A stretch of 64,000 nucleotides of DNA from the NCBI GenBank assembly GCA_900313925.1, contig OMTF01000012.1, positions 1 through 64,000 on the forward strand, in the 5' to 3' direction. Shown piece by piece: positions 1 through 42,231 of the stretch (positions are counted from its first letter, which is position 1; every line of letters begins with the position of its first letter). The position numbers and the translations under genes were made by a program. This DNA comes from an uncultured Eubacteriales bacterium (lineage in GTDB: Bacteria; Bacillota; Clostridia; Oscillospirales; Oscillospiraceae). The notes beneath the pieces were generated by a model that was given only the letters and a program-made list of their open reading frames with translations, was not told where the DNA came from and did no database searches.

Positions 1-261
1 TCCGAAACGAGAGAGGTCTTTGGTGCAGACGGTGTTGACTTTACCGGCTTCAATATCCTCGATCATCCTCTGGAAGGCAGGTCTGTTGAAGTTGGTACCG
101 GAATAACCGTCATCGATATATTCGTCAACGATACGGAATCCGTTTTCTTCAGCGAACTGTCTTAAGATCATTCTTTGCGTTTCAATGCTTACACTATCAC
201 CGTAACTTTCATCGTCACGGCTAAGTCTCATGAATAATGCGGTATTGTTTGGCTGTTTCAA
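1..261 (-). CDS. Large serine recombinase of a mobile element, N-terminal part (runs off left edge)
   Basis: Reading leftward from a TTG codon at 261 gives 87 codons open to the window edge. The start is set by AAGGAGG ending nine bases upstream; no ATG lies nearer. The protein has the resolvase N-terminal catalytic domain. RLSRDDE carries the presumed nucleophilic Ser at residue 14, followed by the conserved stretches DDGYSGTNFNRP and KDLSRFG. These are typical of the large serine recombinases (TnpX/Tn4451 and Tn5397 type) that excise and integrate clostridial mobilizable elements through a covalent Ser-DNA intermediate. The C-terminal DNA-binding part lies outside the window. It lies on the same strand as the mobC operon. 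Confidence 0.9.
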   Translation of the reverse strand, partial: MKQPNNTALFMRLSRDDESYGDSVSIETQRMILRQFAEENGFRIVDEYIDDGYSGTNFNRPAFQRMIEDIEAGKVNTVCTKDLSRFG

Positions 262-362
262 TTATGATTTCCTCCTTTGCTTGAAAAACAACCCACGCTT
301 ACAATACTTCACCTATTATTTTAAGTAAGCGTGAGTTCTCATTCAATCTATCTGAGTAAATT

Positions 363-629
363 TCACATTTTGCGGTTTTCACGGATGATGTTTTCTTCCA
401 TCAGTGTGCTCATATCCTTGCCGGAATCTTTGAAATGTTCCTTCACTTTTATGGCAGTATCTCCCATTAACAGAAGAGTGAAATCTTCAGCGACGAGATA
501 CATGTTCACAGGCTTCATATTTTTCTTTTCAAGGCAATCTCTTCCCATGAATTTATCCGGTAGTTTTTCTTCCGGGAAGTAACAGGAATTCAGATCGACG
601 GTTTTGTTATCGGCAATTGTTTTCTTCAA
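363..629 (-). CDS. Small mobile-element protein of unknown function
   Basis: This open frame of about 88 residues lies between mobC and the recombinase on the same strand. A GTG at 647 overlaps the mobC stop but has no ribosome binding site. A TTG at 629 sits seven bases after AAGGAGG and is the better start. The sequence is hydrophilic, with the segment NMYLVAEDFTLLLMGDTAIKVKEHF, shown here only as position about 47-71, and no signal peptide or membrane segment. I recognise no family. Short proteins of this size are common between mobilization and recombinase genes of clostridial elements. Confidence 0.6.
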   Translation of the reverse strand: MKKTIADNKTVDLNSCYFPEEKLPDKFMGRDCLEKKNMKPVNMYLVAEDFTLLLMGDTAIKVKEHFKDSGKDMSTLMEENIIRENRKM

Positions 630-643
630 ATATTCATCCTCCT

Positions 644-1036
644 TCACTTCTTCGTATTTATTGATTGATATTCTTTCTCTGCGGCTGCATCTAATCTCAT
701 CAGAGAATCGTGCATATGACTGGCAATGTCTTTCAATTGTTTCGCTAACGGATTTGTCAGCACTCCACCTTGGTTAAGATATCTTGCGATCTGGTTGAGA
801 TTGTTTCCAACTTTATTGATCTTATGGAGTTCTTCAATCAATTCTCTGTCATCATGGATGACGATCGGATAGATCGGTATTTTTCTGTGCAACAATAATC
901 TTCGGATATATTCCGATACAGATAATTGAGATAGTTCACATTCCTTCTTTAGAACAACATATTCATCTTCTGTAAGACGTATCGTTATCCTGTGCTTCTT
1001 TGGTGGCGGTAATGTTTTCTTCTTTCTTCCTGACAT
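644..1036 (-). CDS. mobC: MobC-like relaxosome accessory protein
   Basis: The protein has 130 residues. A basic N-terminus (GRKKKTLPPPKK) is followed by a ribbon-helix-helix-like segment (ITIRLTEDEYVVLKKEC, then LSVSEYIRRLLL) and a helical C-terminal half containing INKVGNNLNQIARYLNQGG. That last motif is the signature of the bacterial mobilization protein family MobC, which binds oriT DNA and helps the relaxase nick it. The start has GGAAGTG upstream. It is followed, with overlap, by the small element gene and then the recombinase. No relaxase gene is visible in the window and may lie to the left. The direct repeats upstream are a plausible oriT or regulatory region. Confidence 0.85.
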   Translation of the reverse strand: MSGRKKKTLPPPKKHRITIRLTEDEYVVLKKECELSQLSVSEYIRRLLLHRKIPIYPIVIHDDRELIEELHKINKVGNNLNQIARYLNQGGVLTNPLAKQLKDIASHMHDSLMRLDAAAEKEYQSINTKK

Positions 1037-1063
1037 GAATAATCACTTCCTTTCATTCCATAT

Positions 1064-1402
1064 GTCCTCACTTATCAGTGGGGGTTAAAATCTTCATAGT
1101 TGTGCAGAATTTCTTCAAAGTCCCCTCATTAATCTTTAGTGGACAGAAATCGGTGAAGTTGAACACTTTTTCCTTCGACTTTTTCAGAAATTTCATATTT
1201 GACTGTTTTTCCATCAATATCCCCTCACTTATATGAAGGGGAAAGAAATTGGCTGCTTCTAACAGTTTTTCTGCAGATTTCTCAGAAAAGACTGATCCAA
1301 ACATCCTCTCAATTAAATGAAGGGGACAAAATTAGAACTTTTGGCTCAAAGAATCGACATTTTCTTTTTATGACGAACATCCCTTCACTTATATATAGGG
1401 GA
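1064..1402. repeat. Five imperfect palindromic direct repeats upstream of mobC
   Basis: Units begin near 1064, 1120, 1220, 1303 and 1380. Each resembles CCCCTCACTTATATGAAGGGG, a short dyad, and most are followed by a similar tail (about GGACAGAAATCGGAAGTT). Spacing is irregular, about 56-100 bp. Read on the minus strand, three units would encode PLxI(S/N)EG. Every unit ends in a GAGG/GAAGG box close to a possible ATG, as if it carried a ribosome binding site for a mini-ORF. Their position just upstream of mobC suggests oriT or a regulatory array, or a decayed repeat-coding region. The function is unknown. Confidence 0.7.
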
Positions 1403-1434
1403 CGGAAAATATCGAAGTTGTGCATCATAAACGC

Positions 1435-1465
1435 AAAAAATCCGCAATCATTTAAGACTGCGGAT
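1435..1465 (-). terminator. Intrinsic terminator, leftward
   Basis: On the minus strand the stem ATCCGCA / TGCGGAT with a 12-base loop is followed directly by a run of T. It would stop transcripts entering the mobC region from the right, and so separates the cysteine operon from the mobility genes. Confidence 0.65.
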
Positions 1466-1803
1466 CTAATCCCTTTATGTAATAAAGACTGTGAATATAA
1501 TGAGCTGAATAGCTTCAGCAATTGTAAGAGGGTTTGGGGAAACGTTATCCCCAACAAGTGCCTGTCTGTATAATTCATGAAAATGAATTTCTGTCAGACA
1601 AGGCGAATCTTGCTCTGAAAAGCGGATAGAATTTATAGCCAATAAAAGAAGCTGCTCTTCACCCTCTGATAAAACTCACACCAGAAGAGGAAGAAGCAGC
1701 CAAAGAAATGATTCATAGTATGCTTGCTGAGGCTGTCTTCAAAAAAGCCGAGATAGTTCCATATCAAACTTCATGCCAAAATATTCAAAGCGATTTGATC
1801 TAA
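1466..1803 (+). other. Intergenic stretch with a possible decayed coding fragment
   Basis: No intact gene. On the plus strand, bases about 1640-1802 read without a stop as an acidic helical peptide (LTPEEEEAAKEMIHSMLAEA) ending in TAA, but there is no start codon or ribosome binding site, and a stop lies just upstream. It looks like the 3' remnant of a gene. I cannot name the parent. Confidence 0.3.
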
Positions 1804-2949
1804 TCAATATTCGTCAAGAAAATTATGTTTAATACCATCTTTCTTATATGAAAGCACTGTGTCCAGGTTTATATTTTCTACACTCTTGAATATATTAGCT
1901 TCAATATAGGGGTTTTTCTTTTTTAGTTCAGCGATCAGCTTCTTTGTTTCCAATCTTTTCGACGATGTTGTTCCATCGGCATGGCAGGTAGTGCATGTAT
2001 CAGTAAAATGGCAGGCGCATTGAAGAAAATGAAGATCGTAATATTTTGCCCACGACTTTATATCATCCTCTCTAATAAAATACATCGGACGAATTAATTC
2101 CATTTTTTCAAAATTACTACTATGGAGTTTTGGCATCATCGTCTGGGTTTGACCTCCATACAGCATCCCCATCATGATCGTTTCTATGACATCATCATAA
2201 TGATGACCCAAAGCAATCTTATTGCAGCCAAGCTCTTTGGCCTTGTTGTAAAGATGCCCTCGTCTCATCCTGGCACAGATGTAGCAGGGATTTTTATCTA
2301 TTTTATCGACTGCGTCGAAGATCCTGGTATCAAATACGCTGATCGGGATCCCGAGTCTCTCCGCGTTGCTTTCGATAAGTTTTCTATTTTCGGGACTGTA
2401 ACCCGGATCCATGACCAGAAATGTCAGATCAAACGATACCTTATTATGGCGTTTAATTTCCTGAAACAGCTTTGCCATCAACATGGAATCTTTACCGCCG
2501 GATATGCATATGGCAATGTGGTCTCCCTCACTGATCAGCTGATAAGTTTTACAGGCTCTGGCAAAAGGTGAAAATAACTGTTTATGATATTTATGCTGAA
2601 TATCCTTTTCTATCTTTTCTTTTTCTGCATCATTTGCTTTCTTAGAAGAGATATAGCTGATGTAACCTCTGTATCCGTCTTTTAACGAAAAGCAATTTCT
2701 TAAAGAAAGGAAAGAAAGATCGCTCAATTGCTGAGTTTTTCTTCCAATCTGGCAATAAAAGATTAGTGTCTTATCTATGGGTATGGTATCGACTTTTTCC
2801 AGTTTATTGTTTTGTAAATCCTCCAGTTTAATATGTATCGCATCAGGTATCATCCCATAGGAAACAAGCACATCATCTCTGATATCAATAAGTCTGTACG
2901 TATTGTCCGGAAGTTTGTATACTTCTTCAATCGTTATTTCCTGCATCAT
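1804..2949 (-). CDS. Rhodanese domain fused to TtcA-like PP-loop ATPase
   Basis: The protein has 381 residues and two parts. Residues about 1-105 form a rhodanese fold with a candidate persulfide Cys66 in YCQIGRKTQ. The rest is an adenine-nucleotide alpha-hydrolase of the TtcA class, with ATP loop SGGKDS at 150-155, the Cys pair CYICARMRRG at 222-225, ALGHHYDD, and a Cys-rich segment near the C-terminus. TtcA 2-thiolates C32 of tRNA using an Fe-S cluster. A fused rhodanese would supply the sulfur. It is the last gene of the cysteine operon and overlaps the upstream gene by four bases. The tRNA target is inferred; another sulfur transfer is possible. Confidence 0.82.
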   Translation of the reverse strand: MMQEITIEEVYKLPDNTYRLIDIRDDVLVSYGMIPDAIHIKLEDLQNNKLEKVDTIPIDKTLIFYCQIGRKTQQLSDLSFLSLRNCFSLKDGYRGYISYISSKKANDAEKEKIEKDIQHKYHKQLFSPFARACKTYQLISEGDHIAICISGGKDSMLMAKLFQEIKRHNKVSFDLTFLVMDPGYSPENRKLIESNAERLGIPISVFDTRIFDAVDKIDKNPCYICARMRRGHLYNKAKELGCNKIALGHHYDDVIETIMMGMLYGGQTQTMMPKLHSSNFEKMELIRPMYFIREDDIKSWAKYYDLHFLQCACHFTDTCTTCHADGTTSSKRLETKKLIAELKKKNPYIEANIFKSVENINLDTVLSYKKDGIKHNFLDEY

Positions 2950-3629
2950 TCACCTATAATCTGCGGAATCAGTATCTTTCCGTTTCCGTTACAGAAACGA
3001 ACCGTGGTGTCTACGATTCTGTCAGCAGTCTCATACAGCAAATCATCAGATGTCTTTTCGTTTCCCTGGACGATATAGAAGATGTTCTTTGAATCCTCTG
3101 TCACCTTATCTTTTTCAACCTGCCTGATCTCTAACCAGCAGAGAATTTCGTTGTTGTCATCAATATAAGAATACTCTCCGGGTTTTACCGGCTTATCTTC
3201 TTCAGAACCGAGAGGTCTGAATTTCTCTGTTCCATCTGTCAATCGTAATGTGATGTTTCCACTCAATTTGTCGATATCATGTGCTCCCAGAGCCAGTTTT
3301 GATTCCATGGAAATAATATTATAGATATCAACTGCTTTATTGATTTCAAATAATCCCTGCTTTTTTATAAGCAGCTTTATCAGATTTTCCGAAGCGGGAA
3401 TATTCTTTCTTCTGGGAACATTTACTTTTTCATGCAGCGTATAGAATGCTTCTAATACCTCGTCCTGTTTTACATCAAAATCTTTATATTTCTCTAAAAG
3501 AACACCGACTTCATCTTTCCTCCATTGAAGATATTCATCGCTGATCGTTTTGTTGTCGATGCCATCGATTTCGACGCCAATGATCTTTACACCTAAATCA
3601 AGTACTTTCTGCTCAACATAAAATTCCAT
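2946..3629 (-). CDS. B3/4-domain protein (PheRS editing-domain homologue)
   Basis: The protein has 227 residues. The central and C-terminal parts match the free-standing B3/4 family: VNVPRRKNIPASENLIKLL at about 92-110, then SMESKLALGAHDIDKLSGNI, and a C-terminal segment FYIVQGNEKTSDDLLYETAD. B3/4 is the editing domain of bacterial phenylalanyl-tRNA synthetase. Free-standing copies are usually annotated without function, but could hydrolyse mischarged tRNA. The gene sits between the thioredoxin-like lipoprotein and the TtcA-like gene and overlaps the latter by four bases, which implies translational coupling. Its presence in a cysteine operon suggests a role tied to amino acid or tRNA quality, which is inference. 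Confidence 0.78.
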   Translation of the reverse strand: MEFYVEQKVLDLGVKIIGVEIDGIDNKTISDEYLQWRKDEVGVLLEKYKDFDVKQDEVLEAFYTLHEKVNVPRRKNIPASENLIKLLIKKQGLFEINKAVDIYNIISMESKLALGAHDIDKLSGNITLRLTDGTEKFRPLGSEEDKPVKPGEYSYIDDNNEILCWLEIRQVEKDKVTEDSKNIFYIVQGNEKTSDDLLYETADRIVDTTVRFCNGNGKILIPQIIGE

Positions 3630-3651
3630 TATTACTAATCATCTCCTGTCT

Positions 3652-4386
3652 CTATTTTAGTGCGAAGAACTCTTCAAAGATCGCTTCTTCATCTTTCAAT
3701 ATTTCTTCGCTTAAATTCTGATATGAATCACTTTGTTTGTCAGAGATCCCGGTGACCAGTGATCTTATTTCTCCGTCTTTGATATAGACAAAATTCGGAG
3801 CATAAATCCTTTTTTCACCAACTTCTATCGTTTGTCCGTCAACGTTCAAGGTATAATCACTGAGATAATCCTTCCAGTAATCTAAAAGCTGATAATATGC
3901 ATCAGAGGCAACAGTGTCCATAACAAGGGATCCATCTTCATAGACGAATTTATCTCTCAATATTTCGTTCCCCTCGTCATCCCAGATCTTAAGATAATAG
4001 ATTTTATCAACAGCATTATCTTTGGCCACTTCAATCGCCTTTTCGATCACGCTTCTGCACCACGGACATTTTTCATCACCAATATAGACATAAAACTTTT
4101 CGTTGTTCTCAATCATTCTGACAATATCTTCAGGGCTCATCTTGACCAAAGCATGATCTTCAGGTAAATGCACGGTTCTATATTCCTTACCGGAAGAATT
4201 TGTTTTCCCATTGTAGTATTCATACGCTTCTTTGATCGTCATATTTGATACTCCTGCTTCAATAGTATTTTCACACTCAGAAAAAATGTCACATCCCGAT
4301 ATGGTTTTCTCTTCTTCCTTATTGTTGACTGAGCACCCACACAAAACAAATAATATCGCAGCAGAACAAATCAACCGTTTATTCAT
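3652..4386 (-). CDS. Thioredoxin-like lipoprotein
   Basis: The start is taken at the ATG at 4386, since only there does the protein begin with a typical lipoprotein signal: MNKR, a hydrophobic core, then LCGC with the lipidated Cys at residue 18. A longer upstream frame overlaps the preceding gene. The mature part holds a thioredoxin-like CPWC at 107-110 within FYVYIGDEKCPWCRSVIEKA. It is thus likely an extracytoplasmic thiol-disulfide protein anchored to the membrane. It overlaps the ECF S-component gene by eight bases. In this operon it may reduce an extracellular disulfide such as cystine, which is inference from context. Confidence 0.8.
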   Translation of the reverse strand: MNKRLICSAAILFVLCGCSVNNKEEEKTISGCDIFSECENTIEAGVSNMTIKEAYEYYNGKTNSSGKEYRTVHLPEDHALVKMSPEDIVRMIENNEKFYVYIGDEKCPWCRSVIEKAIEVAKDNAVDKIYYLKIWDDEGNEILRDKFVYEDGSLVMDTVASDAYYQLLDYWKDYLSDYTLNVDGQTIEVGEKRIYAPNFVYIKDGEIRSLVTGISDKQSDSYQNLSEEILKDEEAIFEEFFALK

Positions 4387-4954
4387 GATGCGGTATCCTC
4401 GGCAAAAAGTTTTTATATAAAGCCAAATATAAGATGACCGATACAAAGACACAGGCAACTGCGTTTATGGCGGTAGCTCCAGCTGCCCAGGCTGCAATGA
4501 TTTTTGCTGCCTCTTGCGGGATACCCAAAATATAATTTCGATACAGATAGCCGATGATCGGATCAGCCACAACATTAAAGCCTAGTCCGGCGATCGCAGA
4601 GGTCGCAGCTGCCATAATGATGTCCTTACGATCCGTTTTTTCCTGTAATTTCAGTTGCTGGGCTACCTTACCGGCAATGAATCCAATCAAAAACTTTAGC
4701 AGGAATGTCTTTGGTGCCGATGTGATGTATCTTGGATCCAGGACATCCGCGATGGTCAGTCCAATCGCTCCCGAAAGCCCACCATAGAGGGGTCCTAAAA
4801 ACCAGGCTGACAGTACAACAATCGCATTCGCAATATGGATTGCTGTTGAAGTTCCAGCCGTGACCGGAATCGTGATCTTTCCATAAGCAAAAGCCACATA
4901 ATTGATGACCGTAAACATGGCTGTATATGCCAATAACTTTGTTTTTTTATTCAT
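4379..4954 (-). CDS. ECF transporter S component (substrate-binding membrane subunit)
   Basis: The protein has 191 residues and about five to six hydrophobic segments. It has the pattern of energy-coupling-factor S subunits: MNKKTKLLAYTAMFTVI at the start, then IANAIVVLSAWFLGPLYGG and the conserved SGAIGLTIADVLDP. S subunits bind a vitamin or metabolite and dock on the shared EcfAAT module, none of which is in the window. Lying directly after cysE and overlapping the thioredoxin-like lipoprotein gene, it probably serves sulfur metabolism, perhaps uptake of cysteine, cystine or a related thiol. The substrate cannot be read from the sequence. Confidence 0.8.
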   Translation of the reverse strand: MNKKTKLLAYTAMFTVINYVAFAYGKITIPVTAGTSTAIHIANAIVVLSAWFLGPLYGGLSGAIGLTIADVLDPRYITSAPKTFLLKFLIGFIAGKVAQQLKLQEKTDRKDIIMAAATSAIAGLGFNVVADPIIGYLYRNYILGIPQEAAKIIAAWAAGATAINAVACVFVSVILYLALYKNFLPRIPHHE

Positions 4955-4977
4955 CGTATATTCCCCCCGAAGAAAGC

Positions 4978-5745
4978 TTAGCTTTCTTTCACTAACGATT
5001 CCGTAATCAGAGAATTTGCTTTGATAACAGAATAATCTTCTATGTAAGTATCTCCACCGAATATTGACGCATTTGAGTAAATGACAACATGGTTCCCGAT
5101 ATTAGGATGACGTTTCCCACCCTTGATAAGTTTTCCCTGCTGATCTTCATAGAATTTCTTTACTCCCAAAGTGACCCCATGATATATACGTACATGATTA
5201 CCGATCACAGCAGTTTCACCGATTATAATTCCGGTCCCATGATCTATGCAGAAATATTCACCGATCTGAGCTCCGGGATGTATATCAATCCCTGTATGTT
5301 CATGCGCATATTCAGAGATAATCCTTGGAATTACAGGAACATTCATACTGTACAGTTCATGAGCTACTCTGTGACACAAGATAGCCAGAAATCCAGGAAA
5401 TGAAAGAATGATTTCTGTTTTTGTATGTACGGAAGGATCACCGTCATAGATTGCTTGAATGTCCCTATTCAGTGCATCCTGAATAAAGGGCAATCTATCG
5501 ATTAATGAATCTGTAATCTGTTTGTATTTTTTTCTTTCTACTTTTCTGATCTCGCCACTGATATTCTTTTCTATCAAATCAAGAAGATCAGCCGGTTCTA
5601 ATTCGTTTGTATAATAATCCGGGTATAAAAGTGAACGGATCTGCAGAACAACAGAGATGATCCTGTCTTTATTAATGGCAGGATCATTCTCTGGTATTAT
5701 CCTATGGCAGTTTAGCTTATCAAGAATTTCTTCACGCTTGTTCAT
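4978..5745 (-). CDS. cysE: Serine O-acetyltransferase
   Basis: The enzyme makes O-acetylserine from serine and acetyl-CoA, the first step of cysteine synthesis. The 255-residue protein has an N-terminal helical part and a C-terminal left-handed beta helix of hexapeptide repeats. Catalytic His169 lies in DHGTG, preceded by HPGAQIGEYFCI and followed by GETAVIGNHVRIYHGVTLG. The length and N-terminal part fit the EpsC-type enzymes of Gram-positives and Bacteroidota. The gene overlaps the end of cysK by four bases, so the pair is translationally coupled, and both are under the leader-peptide attenuator. Confidence 0.95.
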   Translation of the reverse strand: MNKREEILDKLNCHRIIPENDPAINKDRIISVVLQIRSLLYPDYYTNELEPADLLDLIEKNISGEIRKVERKKYKQITDSLIDRLPFIQDALNRDIQAIYDGDPSVHTKTEIILSFPGFLAILCHRVAHELYSMNVPVIPRIISEYAHEHTGIDIHPGAQIGEYFCIDHGTGIIIGETAVIGNHVRIYHGVTLGVKKFYEDQQGKLIKGGKRHPNIGNHVVIYSNASIFGGDTYIEDYSVIKANSLITESLVKES

Positions 5746-6677
5746 TCGTCTCCAAACAGTGCAGTGGAAAGATATCTGTCACCGGAATCAGGCAGGATGA
5801 TCACGATATTTTTGCCTTTGTTTTCGGGGCGTTTGGCCAGTTCGATGCCTGCCCAGACTGCCGCACCAGCTGATATGCCGACTAAAACACCTTCTTTCTT
5901 ACCAAACAATGCACCGGTAGCTAATGCGTCCTCATTGGTAACACGAATAATTTCATCATAGATGGATGTATCCAAAACATTTGCAACAAACCCGGGTCCG
6001 ATGCCCTGGATCTTATGAGTGCCCGGCTGTCCTCCGGATAAGACAGGTGAAGCATCCGGTTCTACAGCCACGATATACAGATCATCTTTTTTCTCTTTCA
6101 AATATTTTCCTGCTCCGGTAATAGTGCCACCTGTTCCTACACCAGAAACCAGAATATCTATATTTCCATCGGTATCATTCCAGATTTCCGGTCCGGTTGT
6201 TTCATAATGAGCTTTCCAGTTGGCAGGATTATCAAATTGTGAAGGTATGAATGAATTCGGGATTTCTTTAGCTAGTTCTTCTGCTTTGGCGATGGCTCCT
6301 TTCATTCCTTTAGAACCTTCCGATAATATAATCTCTGCACCATATGCCTTGATCAGTTTTCTTCTTTCGATGGAGAATGTTTCCGGCATGACAATAATGA
6401 CTCTATATCCTTTGGAGGTACCGACAGAAGCTAATCCGATACCGGTATTACCAGAAGTCGGTTCAATGATGACAGATCCTTCTTTTAATATTCCTTTTTC
6501 TTCGGCATCTTCTATCATAGATTTTGCGATACGGTCTTTGACCGATCCTGTTACATTGAAATATTCCAGTTTCCCAATCAACTTAGCTTTAAGATCAAAT
6601 TCTTTTTCGATATGTGTAAGTTCATATAATGGTGTATTGCCGATAAGTTCAGTTGCGTTAGTTTTAATATTTAACAT
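5742..6677 (-). CDS. cysK: Cysteine synthase (O-acetylserine sulfhydrylase)
   Basis: A PLP enzyme that converts O-acetylserine and sulfide to cysteine. The 311 residues include the PLP lysine at about 47 in TGSVKDRIAK, the substrate loop EPTSGNTGIG at about 72-81, the PLP-phosphate loop GVGTGGTITG, and the C-terminal serine-containing PDSGDRYLST. The start ATG follows GAAGGAAAACAC. It is the first gene of a six-gene leftward operon. About 40 bases upstream stands an intrinsic terminator that belongs to a cysteine-codon attenuator. The lower G+C relative to genes right of 7.5 kb supports acquisition with the mobile element. Confidence 0.96.
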   Translation of the reverse strand: MLNIKTNATELIGNTPLYELTHIEKEFDLKAKLIGKLEYFNVTGSVKDRIAKSMIEDAEEKGILKEGSVIIEPTSGNTGIGLASVGTSKGYRVIIVMPETFSIERRKLIKAYGAEIILSEGSKGMKGAIAKAEELAKEIPNSFIPSQFDNPANWKAHYETTGPEIWNDTDGNIDILVSGVGTGGTITGAGKYLKEKKDDLYIVAVEPDASPVLSGGQPGTHKIQGIGPGFVANVLDTSIYDEIIRVTNEDALATGALFGKKEGVLVGISAGAAVWAGIELAKRPENKGKNIVIILPDSGDRYLSTALFGDE

Positions 6678-6710
6678 GTGTTTTCCTTCTTTCTTTTCTT
6701 GTTAAGACGA

Positions 6711-6741
6711 CAAATAAAAATCCGGGATTATACTCCCGGAT
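6711..6741 (-). terminator. Attenuator terminator of the cysK operon
   Basis: On the minus strand, ATCCGGGA (6741-6734), a 6-base loop and TCCCGGAT (6727-6720) form a perfect 8-bp stem followed by TTTTTATTT. It lies between the leader peptide and cysK. Its 5' arm can pair instead with CCCGGAT inside the leader ORF (6826-6820), which would remove the terminator. Confidence 0.9.
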
Positions 6742-6797
6742 AAATGCCTATCTATGTATGGATGTTACAATGAATTAACATCGATGAGATTGTTGCA

Positions 6798-6875
6798 TCA
6801 AAACAATCCCAGACGGCATATCCGGGTATATTGTTTCATACAACAACACATCATGCTCTGTTTGTAAGATGTCAT
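6798..6875 (-). CDS. Cysteine-rich leader peptide of the cysK operon (25 residues)
   Basis: ATG at 6875, stop TGA at 6800-6798, with AAAGGAG eight bases upstream of the ATG. Residues 8-13 read Met-Met-Cys-Cys-Cys-Met, all three Cys codons being TGT, and Cys20 is a fourth. The ORF is too short for ordinary gene finding, but its ribosome binding site, Cys run and position between a promoter and a terminator mark it as a regulatory uORF. Its translation, not its product, is the likely function: it senses charged tRNA-Cys. Confidence 0.85.
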   Translation of the reverse strand: MTSYKQSMMCCCMKQYTRICRLGLF

Positions 6876-6910
6876 ATCCCGTACTCCTTTCGCCGCCTTA
6901 ATTTACAATT

Positions 6911-6939
6911 AGTTTACATCTTATGAAAACTAATTTCAA
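6911..6939 (-). promoter_or_regulatory. Promoter of the cysK operon with an internal dyad
   Basis: On the minus strand -35 TTGAAA (6939-6934), a 17-base spacer and -10 TAAACT (6916-6911). A 7-bp inverted repeat TTAGTTT / AAACTAA spans the spacer and the -10 box. This could be an operator for a repressor, giving a second control layer besides attenuation. Confidence 0.7.
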
Positions 6940-6941
6940 GA

Positions 6942-7410
6942 ATAATGAATATATTTTCATTAAGCTTGTTTATTCGATTTTGTTATTCTGAACGCCCTGT
7001 CGTTTCCTTTTTTTGAAACGTTATCTTTTAAATCAGATCATTATAAGGCGTATGCTTATATGATCCATTCATCTACAATGTCTGATCCGTTAAAGAATTA
7101 AAGAAATAATTACAAACAGATTGATGAAGTTCCCAGATTGCAAATCGGTGATCGATATAACACTAAATCTACATTGCAATAAAAAGGCATAGATACCAGT
7201 CATCTTTGACCAAGTACCTGTGCCTTTTTCATTAGCCTAAATCAATATTATGAGATTCTCATTTCTCAGGTTTTGTTATATTCTGCCAATCAGTATAATC
7301 TTCCTATTTAAGTCTCCTTCAATATATTCTAAACAATTATCTGGCTGTATGACTTGTGATGAAGTGACTGTAAGCGTGGATTATATGAGCTTCTTTAACT
7401 GTGAAATAAC
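6942..7410. other. Non-coding right end of the mobile element
   Basis: About 470 bases of A+T-rich DNA between the cysK promoter and the broken XRE gene, with no supported gene. It holds a long hairpin at 7181-7229 and presumably the terminal recombination site of the element at its right edge. Confidence 0.5.
7181..7229. terminator. Bidirectional terminator-like hairpin
   Basis: AAAAAGGCA at 7181-7189 pairs with TGCCTTTTT at 7221-7229, and AGATAC/GTACCT extends the stem imperfectly. It has T runs on both strands. It may insulate the operon promoter from chromosomal transcription reaching the element end. Confidence 0.6.
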
Positions 7411-40154: not shown

Positions 40155-40364
40155 GCCGAGGCCACCCTTCCGCATCCCAGACGCGAACCAGCCGCATCGG
40201 GAAAATTTTTCACGTGCACTATAGCAAAGCAGATGCGAAAATGCAACCGTAGCAGCCTGCGATCTGTACGAAAAAAATTCCAATACGGAAAAAATTTTGA
40301 GTAGATTTTCCATTGACGGCACGGTAAATCCTGATAAAATACACCCATAAATGAATACGGAAAT

Positions 40365-40641
40365 GCATGGATGGAGACAAGTAGCGCAACTGCTTTCTTA
40401 CAGAGAGCCGGCGGCGGTGGAAAACCGGCAGGGGAATCTGCGTGAATAACACTCCGGAGCAGCGACCTGAAAGATGACACCCAGTAGGGAAGACGCGAAG
40501 CGTGGCGTTAGAACGTGAGGGCTTGATGGAGCTCGAAAAAGAGACCATGGAACATGGTAATTTAGGTGGCACCGCGGATGGCAGCTATTCGTCCTAAGAA
40601 ATTGGGAAAGAGCTGCAATGATTATCCGGAGGTGTTTTTTT
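40365..40641 (+). promoter_or_regulatory. T-box leader, asparagine specific, controlling asnB
   Basis: Stem I has GGAG/CTCC at its base and the AGTA loop motif. The specifier codon AAC at 40448-40450 (Asn) is followed by A. The T-box AGGTGGCACCGCGG lies at 40564-40577; its UGGC (40567-40570) would pair with a GCCA tRNA end, as expected for tRNA-Asn with discriminator G. A competing stem pairs CGGAT (40575-40579) and GCAGCT with AGCTGC and ATCCG (40624-40628), which runs into the ribosome binding site and seven T. Uncharged tRNA-Asn should therefore turn on asnB. Confidence 0.95.
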
Positions 40642-42231
40642 ATGTGTTCCATTATGGGATTTACGACCCAGGCGCTGACTGAGGAAGAGATTCGGCCGTA
40701 TTTTGACCGTACCAAATCCAGAGGTCCGGACAAAACACGCATCGAGAAGACAGGGTCCGGCTGGCTGTGCTTCCACCGGCTTGCCATCATGGATTTAAGC
40801 TGTACCGGAATGCAGCCGTTTCACAGGGACGGCGACATGTGCGTATGCAATGGGGAACTGTATCTTTTCCGCCCTCTTCGCGGTGAAATCGCGAAGGAAG
40901 TCCCGCTGCAAAGCGAATGCGACTGCGAAATTATTCTGCCGCTGTACCGGAAGTACGGACTGGATATGTTTCGAAAACTTGATGCGGAGTTTGCCATGAT
41001 CCTCTACGATGCGCAGAAAGACGCCTATATCGCGGCGCGGGATCCGCTCGGCATCCGTCCGCTGTTTTACGGACGGATGCGGAAGGACGGCTCCATGGTA
41101 TTTGCGAGCGAAGCGAAAAACCTGGTGGGGCTTGTGGATCGAATCCTGCCCTTTCCTCCCGGATGCTACTGGGCGGACGGCACGTTCACCCGCTACGCGG
41201 ATCTGACAACCGTCCGGCCGGAAGAATATATCCGGGACGATGTGGACACAATCTGCCGTAAGATAAGGGAACTTCTAATCCTGGGCATTGACAAGCGGCT
41301 TGACGCTGATGCGCCGCTGGGATTTCTTCTCTCCGGCGGTTTGGATTCCAGCCTGGTCTGCGCAGTTTCCGCGAAGCTCCTGGGACGCCATGTACGGACT
41401 TTCGCCATCGGCATGGACAAGGATGCCATTGATCTTAAGTATGCGCGGGAAGCGGCCGAGTATATCGGGGCGGAACATACGGAGATTTTTATGACGCGGC
41501 AGCAGGTTCTGGACAGTCTGGAGGAGGTCATTGCCGCTTTGGGCACATGGGACATCACCACCATACGGGCAAGCATGGGCATGTACCTTTGCTGCAAGGC
41601 GATCCACGAACAAACGGATGTGCGCGTCCTGCTGACCGGGGAAATCTCGGATGAGCTTTTCGGCTATAAATACACGGACTTTGCCCCTTCCGCGGAGGAA
41701 TTCCAGCGGGAAGCGAAGAAACGTGTTGACGAGCTGTATATGTATGATGTGCTGCGGGCAGATCGTTGCATTTCCGCAAACTCCATCGAGGCCCGTGTGC
41801 CTTTCGGCGATCTGGCGTTTGTAAACTATGTGATGCGCATTGATCCGGAGCGCAAAATGAACCGCTACGGCATCGGAAAGTATCTTCTCCGTCACGCTTT
41901 TGAAAAGGATGGACTTCTGCCGGAAAATATTCTGTGGCGGCAGAAAGCCGCGTTTTCCGACGCAGTCGGACACTCCATGGTGGATGATCTGAAAGCTTAC
42001 GCAGAGCGCCTGTATACGGAGGAAGAGTTCCAGCGGAAGCGCCGGCAGTATGCATTTCGAACGCCGTTTACCAAGGAAAGCCTTCTCTACCGCGAAATTT
42101 TCGAGAAGTATTACCCGGGGCAGGCGGGGATGATCAAGGACTACTGGATGCCGAACCGTTCCTGGAAAGGCTGCGACGTAGATGATCCTTCCGCTCGTGT
42201 GCTGCCAAACTACGGGGCTTCCGGCATGTAG
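40642..42231 (+). CDS. asnB: Asparagine synthase (glutamine-hydrolysing)
   Basis: Start ATG at 40642, so the N-terminal glutaminase nucleophile is Cys2 (MCSIMGFTT). The domain continues through CNGELYLF and AAEFAMILYD-like stretches. The synthetase half has the pyrophosphate loop LLSGGLDSSLV and LTGEISDELFGY. The 529 residues match the AsnB type that turns aspartate, ATP and glutamine into asparagine. Control by an upstream Asn T-box supports the assignment. Confidence 0.97.
   Translation: MCSIMGFTTQALTEEEIRPYFDRTKSRGPDKTRIEKTGSGWLCFHRLAIMDLSCTGMQPFHRDGDMCVCNGELYLFRPLRGEIAKEVPLQSECDCEIILPLYRKYGLDMFRKLDAEFAMILYDAQKDAYIAARDPLGIRPLFYGRMRKDGSMVFASEAKNLVGLVDRILPFPPGCYWADGTFTRYADLTTVRPEEYIRDDVDTICRKIRELLILGIDKRLDADAPLGFLLSGGLDSSLVCAVSAKLLGRHVRTFAIGMDKDAIDLKYAREAAEYIGAEHTEIFMTRQQVLDSLEEVIAALGTWDITTIRASMGMYLCCKAIHEQTDVRVLLTGEISDELFGYKYTDFAPSAEEFQREAKKRVDELYMYDVLRADRCISANSIEARVPFGDLAFVNYVMRIDPERKMNRYGIGKYLLRHAFEKDGLLPENILWRQKAAFSDAVGHSMVDDLKAYAERLYTEEEFQRKRRQYAFRTPFTKESLLYREIFEKYYPGQAGMIKDYWMPNRSWKGCDVDDPSARVLPNYGASGM

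Follow-up and report, generated by a model that had tools for sequence, protein, structure and literature searches.

A putative cysteine-responsive leader-peptide attenuator upstream of cysK in Erysipelotrichaceae and on a low-GC island in an Oscillospiraceae assembly

Results and discussion

We examined a 64,000-nucleotide stretch of DNA from an uncultured Eubacteriales bacterium (contig OMTF01000012.1 of GenBank assembly GCA_900313925.1; here, the window), in which the leader of a cysK operon is, judging from its sequence and modeled folds, very probably a cysteine-specific, ribosome-mediated transcription attenuator that senses Cys-tRNA. We also lean, with much less assurance, toward a broader view in which this leader is one of a class of leader-peptide transcription attenuators that respond to cysteine, are undescribed so far, and occur throughout the family Erysipelotrichaceae; the class would act on cysK, carry the antiterminator strand inside the leader open reading frame (ORF), and move between families with the operon on a mobilizable island.

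Leader architecture and pairings

The leader elements claimed in an earlier sequence-only reading are all present on the minus strand of the window where that reading had placed them. A candidate promoter found by consensus scan (6911 to 6939) consists of a −35 element, TTGAAA (6939 to 6934), a 17-nt spacer, and a −10 element, TAAACT (6916 to 6911). Its sequence is as read, but the strength of the match is at the level of chance, since sites with 9 of 12 consensus positions are not rarer than in shuffled sequence (4 per 500 bp versus 2.7 expected). Downstream lie a Shine-Dalgarno sequence (SD), AAAGGAG (6884 to 6890), and a putatively translated upstream ORF (uORF) of 25 codons plus TGA (6798 to 6875; ATG at 6875, TGA at 6800 to 6798) that encodes MTSYKQSMMCCCMKQYTRICRLGLF; the sequence GGCGAAAGGAG recurs ahead of the corresponding uORFs in relatives. 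Three consecutive TGT codons (6840 to 6848), flanked on both sides by Met codons, form the proposed stall site, and a fourth Cys codon occurs at position 20. An intrinsic terminator follows (6711 to 6741), with a stem at 6741 to 6720 of 8 pairs, a loop of 6, a T-rich tail to 6711, and a free energy of −13.5 kcal/mol; three terminator-like sites were observed in the leader region versus 0.2 expected. The order of elements is thus uORF, Cys run, terminator, and then the cysteine synthesis gene cysK. As a whole, the 194-nt leader is more stable when folded than each of 200 shuffled versions (z = −3.35).

The motif CCCGGAT (6826 to 6820) is a copy of the terminator 3′ arm and complements the 5′ arm, ATCCGGG (6741 to 6735). 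The 7-base complementarity proposed from the sequence extends to 8 bp, and the window's own antiterminator pairing exceeds that of shuffles (P = 0.007). That 7-bp helix is part of a larger structure than had been suggested: in the stalled fold, the strand CCCGGAUA-UGCC-GUCU (6811 to 6826), within the uORF and directly after the Cys run, pairs with AGAU-GGCA-UAUCCGGG (6735 to 6753), which overlaps the terminator 5′ arm. This antiterminator encloses a hairpin of GGGAUUGUU with AACAAUCUC (6786 to 6810), also part of the minimum free energy structure of the stalled state, that competes for the 3′ strand of a hiding hairpin, or anti-antiterminator, and so removes the partner strand of the hiding helix. 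The hiding hairpin itself (6801 to 6836) pairs AAACAAU-AUA-CCCGGAU with GUCUGGGAUUGUUU, the AUA forming a 3-nt bulge between AAACAAU and CCCGGAU. A second pairing able to hide CCCGGAT had been anticipated, and the one recovered is bigger than claimed, with 14 pairs and −12.4 kcal/mol (P = 0.010 versus shuffles).

Folded in its stalled and released states, the window leader behaves as the sequence-only reading supposed. With the ribosomal A site at Cys10 or Cys11, the minimum free energy fold is the long antiterminator; at Cys12, the terminator is slightly ahead at equilibrium, near balance; and once the ribosome has come close to or reached the stop codon, or has left, the terminator forms, in the last case together with the hiding hairpin. 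These computed folds suggest the following model. Transcription would begin ahead of the uORF, with a ribosome following the RNA polymerase into the 25 codons. Given ample Cys-tRNA, the ribosome would clear the three Cys codons, cover the antiterminator strand (6826 to 6811), and leave at the stop; with that strand covered or held in the hiding hairpin after its passage, the terminator (6741 to 6720) would form and cysK would be off. Were charged Cys-tRNA short, the ribosome would stall on the Cys codons, mask the 5′ side of the hiding hairpin, and leave CCCGGAU free. Pairing of GGGAUUGUU with AACAAUCUC and of CCCGGAUAUGCCGUCU with AGAUAGGCAUUUAUCCGGG would then take the terminator 5′ arm, and transcription would be expected to continue into the cysK, cysE, ECF transporter, and thioredoxin-like genes.

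Conservation of the Cys-run uORF

We searched upstream of cysK genes for uORFs with an ATG, an SD, and at least three Cys in six codons, positioned −300 to −50 relative to cysK. Of the 32 closest cysK genes, 24 are preceded by such a uORF, compared with 1 of 1,600 shuffled leaders (0.06%); the count for further Erysipelotrichaceae cysK genes is 18 of 39. It was found at 2 of 77 other named genomes and at none of 35 cysK genes from the family to which the window genome belongs. Among close cysK genes that failed the search, three (L160, L162, and L164) sit behind another gene, apparently a sulfhydrylase, and three (L169, L173, and L177) have two tandem Cys codons in a leader that is otherwise equal. 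Cys runs in relatives comprise 2 to 6 Cys, usually 3 to 6, and are written in both codons (115 TGT and 47 TGC), while the remainder of the peptide diverges, as in MNHRKNVCCCCCISMTWVRCQEMF, MKHYTVMCCCCCCSVLNEPGPIC, and MCCCCNLNNVRMNAVTASGLL. The uORF, the Cys run, and the pairings are kept in homologous operons across dozens of genomes. Conservation had been expected upstream of clostridial cysK genes; the leaders are indeed conserved, but their carriers are Erysipelotrichaceae and not clostridia generally. One cultured carrier is Lactimicrobium massiliense. In whole-genome searches for SD-ATG-(Cys)3 or SD-ATG-(Cys)4 patterns, most matches were out-of-frame TGC/TGT repeats, and none pointed clearly to a Cys leader in another Firmicutes family, although such leaders may still occur there.

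Two variants were also seen. On a separate branch of the cysK tree, three loci (L213, L214, and L216) have a leader with paired and spaced Cys codons (MMCCRVLCSRACCMAGVFACAPQ), no single long run, and a terminator, which perhaps represents an independent gain. In genome G336, locus L250 carries a second Cys-run uORF, MVHMKKTICCCCICTSTRFCRPGSFQL, with an SD and a terminator (minus strand, about 700 to 555). The gene after it is not cysK; it encodes a membrane-anchored protein with no Pfam match, runs off the locus, and is a possible second target of a Cys attenuator.

Conservation and modeling of the switch

A terminator, defined as a hairpin with a T tract, lies between the uORF and cysK in 46 of the 49 selected leaders. 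For 29 of these 46, the best pairing of the stretch behind the Cys run with the terminator 5′ arm of that leader outperforms dinucleotide-shuffled sequence at P ≤ 0.05. The mean z is −2.4, and the Fisher combined P is 5e-29 across leaders that are related and hence not independent. Pairing typically starts 3 to 19 nt past the last Cys codon, inside the uORF. The paired sequences differ from leader to leader (CCCGGAU:AUCCGGG, CCUGGGUC:GAUCCAGG, ACCGGA:UCCGGU, UCUCGG:CCGAGA, ACCGGG:CCCGGU, and AUGCCC:GGGCGU), and each region pairs more stably with its own arm than with swapped arms (mean, −11.5 versus −9.6 kcal/mol; 35 distinct arms; permutation P = 1e-4). Since the antiterminator sequences vary while own arms outpair swapped ones, we conclude that the two strands have undergone compensatory change. 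The hiding hairpin, in contrast to its strength in the window and a few relatives, is weakly conserved (6 of 46 at P ≤ 0.05), so that many leaders must rely on the ribosome to mask the antiterminator strand. Most leaders fit a simpler rule, in which a ribosome past the Cys run shields this strand by its own presence.

We then modeled stalling across the 46 leaders by folding the RNA downstream of the ribosome at each codon, at equilibrium and ignoring RNA upstream of the ribosome. Mean terminator probability was 0.5 to 0.6 well ahead of the Cys run; fell to 0.38, 0.32, and 0.38 at the first three codons of the run, with the minimum when the A site is on the second; and rose to about 0.9 from about seven codons past the start of the run. 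Occupancy of the terminator 5′ arm before the 3′ arm emerges took the inverse course, from 0.79 to about 0.35. By calculation, then, the antiterminator prevails with the ribosome at the Cys run and the terminator at later positions, as expected of a stall at regulatory codons. In L153, L183, L188, and L057, the terminator is favored at equilibrium even when the ribosome is stalled, and switching in these leaders would have to be kinetic. When whole free leaders were folded, with the RNA that precedes the Cys run retained, equilibrium terminator probability varied widely between leaders, so the released state should be read as a modeled one.

Alternative explanations

Terminator-bearing leaders are often riboswitches, and the leader might be imagined as a metabolite riboswitch or a protein-binding RNA in which the uORF is incidental. 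However, no Rfam family matched the window leader, the T-box and SAM riboswitch (S-box) covariance models included, a search of the relatives' Cys leaders against Rfam likewise returned no family, the Cys codons are kept as codons (TGT and TGC mixed) while the flanking sequence is not, and the calculated switching depends on the position of the ribosome at the Cys run. We consider such a leader highly improbable. Even less credence goes to a functional Cys-rich micropeptide, for instance, one that binds metals or thiols, with the terminator serving as a constitutive brake: metal binding by runs of as many as six Cys is conceivable, but the peptides share little beyond the run, and the pairing between uORF and terminator arm coevolves.

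Least probable of all is that a meaningless short ORF happens to precede a terminator. Short ORFs are common and the promoter match does not exceed chance, but the frequency of the uORF at the closest cysK genes relative to shuffled leaders, together with the pairing statistics, refutes coincidence through conservation. A stall at Cys codons could also act by exposing the cysK ribosome-binding site instead of blocking termination, and mycobacterial poly-Cys uORFs are described as acting on translation (as cited in PMC13236596). We regard translation attenuation here as very unlikely, though less so than the other three explanations, given that nearly all leaders have a terminator with a U tract between uORF and cysK, that the conserved pairing partner is the terminator arm, and that the terminator hairpin does not include the cysK SD. 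Transcription attenuation at the Cys run is the reading that we carry forward.

Comparison with known regulators

Control of sulfur genes in Firmicutes is usually assigned to T-boxes, S-boxes, or CymR. The leaders described here have the features of leader-peptide attenuators, with tandem Cys codons before cysK, a terminator between them, and a mutually exclusive antiterminator that shows compensatory change. Their logic of stall, antiterminator, and terminator resembles that of the enterobacterial trp and his attenuators. In the trp attenuator, however, the strand that forms the antiterminator lies beyond the uORF, whereas the window type has it within the coding sequence, immediately behind the regulatory codons.

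Within Firmicutes, leader-peptide attenuation of his operons has been reported in Erysipelotrichales, Peptostreptococcaceae, and the Bacillus cereus group (PMC9413887), and His leader peptides have been reported in bacilli (Naville and Gautheret, PMC2965389). The his attenuators of the former study are similar in having 3 to 5 tandem regulatory codons and alternative terminator and antiterminator hairpins, and they occur in the same bacterial order, but they sense His and control his genes rather than Cys and cysK. The uORFC-8-2 motif of Rhodobacterales, a Cys-codon uORF and terminator before cysS with predicted transcription attenuation (PMC8632094), likewise places tandem Cys codons ahead of an intrinsic terminator. 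It differs in its lineage (Alphaproteobacteria), its gene (cysteinyl-tRNA synthetase), and its two Cys codons, compared with cysK, Erysipelotrichaceae, and usually 3 to 6 Cys here; the downstream gene and the bacillotal hosts set our leaders apart from that motif.

Cys-run leader ORFs without terminators precede cys and cbs genes in Mycobacterium, Propionibacterium, and Bifidobacterium (PMC1262725), and the mycobacterial Cys leaders are reported to be cysteine responsive and to control translation (Canestrari et al. 2020, as cited in PMC13236596). These actinobacterial leaders likewise place consecutive Cys codons in a small ORF ahead of cysteine genes, but they are characterized as leaderless ORFs with Cys near the stop, no conserved terminator, and translation attenuation. 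The window type instead has an SD-led ORF, a Cys run well before the stop, and an intrinsic terminator with an antiterminator; the SD upstream of the uORF and the terminator place it outside the mycobacterial leaderless class. We found no description of a cysteine leader in Firmicutes in the literature searched, although subscription papers fall mostly outside that coverage and absence is not proof. On sequence grounds, the Cys attenuator would represent a known mechanism that is new to this lineage and to this gene.

Operon, island, and origin

The operon proposed to be under this control begins on the minus strand with cysK, encoding cysteine synthase A (5742 to 6677; TIGR01139, above cutoff). 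It is followed by a cysE-like serine O-acetyltransferase gene (4978 to 5745; TIGR01172, below the curated cutoff), which adjoins cysK in most relatives, and by genes encoding an ECF transporter S component (4379 to 4954; PF07155), found after cysE or cysK in several relatives, and a thioredoxin-like putative lipoprotein (3652 to 4458; weak PedC/BrcD match), whose true start is probably downstream of the listed TTG. Further along the same strand are genes for a B3/4-domain protein (2946 to 3629; PF03483), which adjoins cysK in L155, and, by domain matches, a rhodanese plus PP-loop (TtcA-like) sulfur-transfer protein (1804 to 2949). The cysK-cysE pair, joined by the ECF and thioredoxin genes in several genomes, recurs behind the leader in relatives. 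The latter two genes are linked in L159, L168, and L170, and the ECF gene also occurs in L153, L154, L158, and L167; their products may take up cystine or another sulfur compound.

The G+C content of positions 1 to 7400 is about 38%, compared with about 53% for the remainder of the window, with an abrupt step near 7.4 kb, and a NikA/MobC-like mobilization gene lies at 644 to 1036. The nearest cysK genes are from Erysipelotrichaceae (75 to 87% identity). A tree built from 116 cysK proteins places the window gene in a clade of 49 (support, 100/94), 40 of which have the Cys leader, while the second cysK of the window genome groups with that of Pygmaiobacter, an oscillospiracean. Given these placements, the operon and its leader probably came from Erysipelotrichaceae. 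The operon may have arrived by horizontal transfer on a low-GC, Erysipelotrichaceae-like, possibly mobilizable island, or the contig may be chimeric, given that the island reaches the contig end. Elsewhere in the window, its sole T-box leader (RF00230, 114.6 bits; 40359 to 40599, plus strand) immediately precedes an asparagine synthase (asnB)-like gene (40618 to 42231) and is ordinary.

Implications

If the proposed attenuator is borne out, the list of amino acids to which Firmicutes leader peptides respond would grow to include cysteine, next to the histidine of the Erysipelotrichales leaders. It would also account for the control of cysteine synthesis in common gut bacteria in which we found no other RNA regulator of these genes; where cysK lacks the Cys leader, searches for T-boxes or further Rfam elements found none. 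The Cys leader would, in addition, mark genes of the cysteine response, such as those for the operon's ECF S component and thioredoxin-like lipoprotein. The dozens of divergent leaders also turn the position of the antiterminator relative to the codon run, and the number of Cys codons needed, into testable rules.
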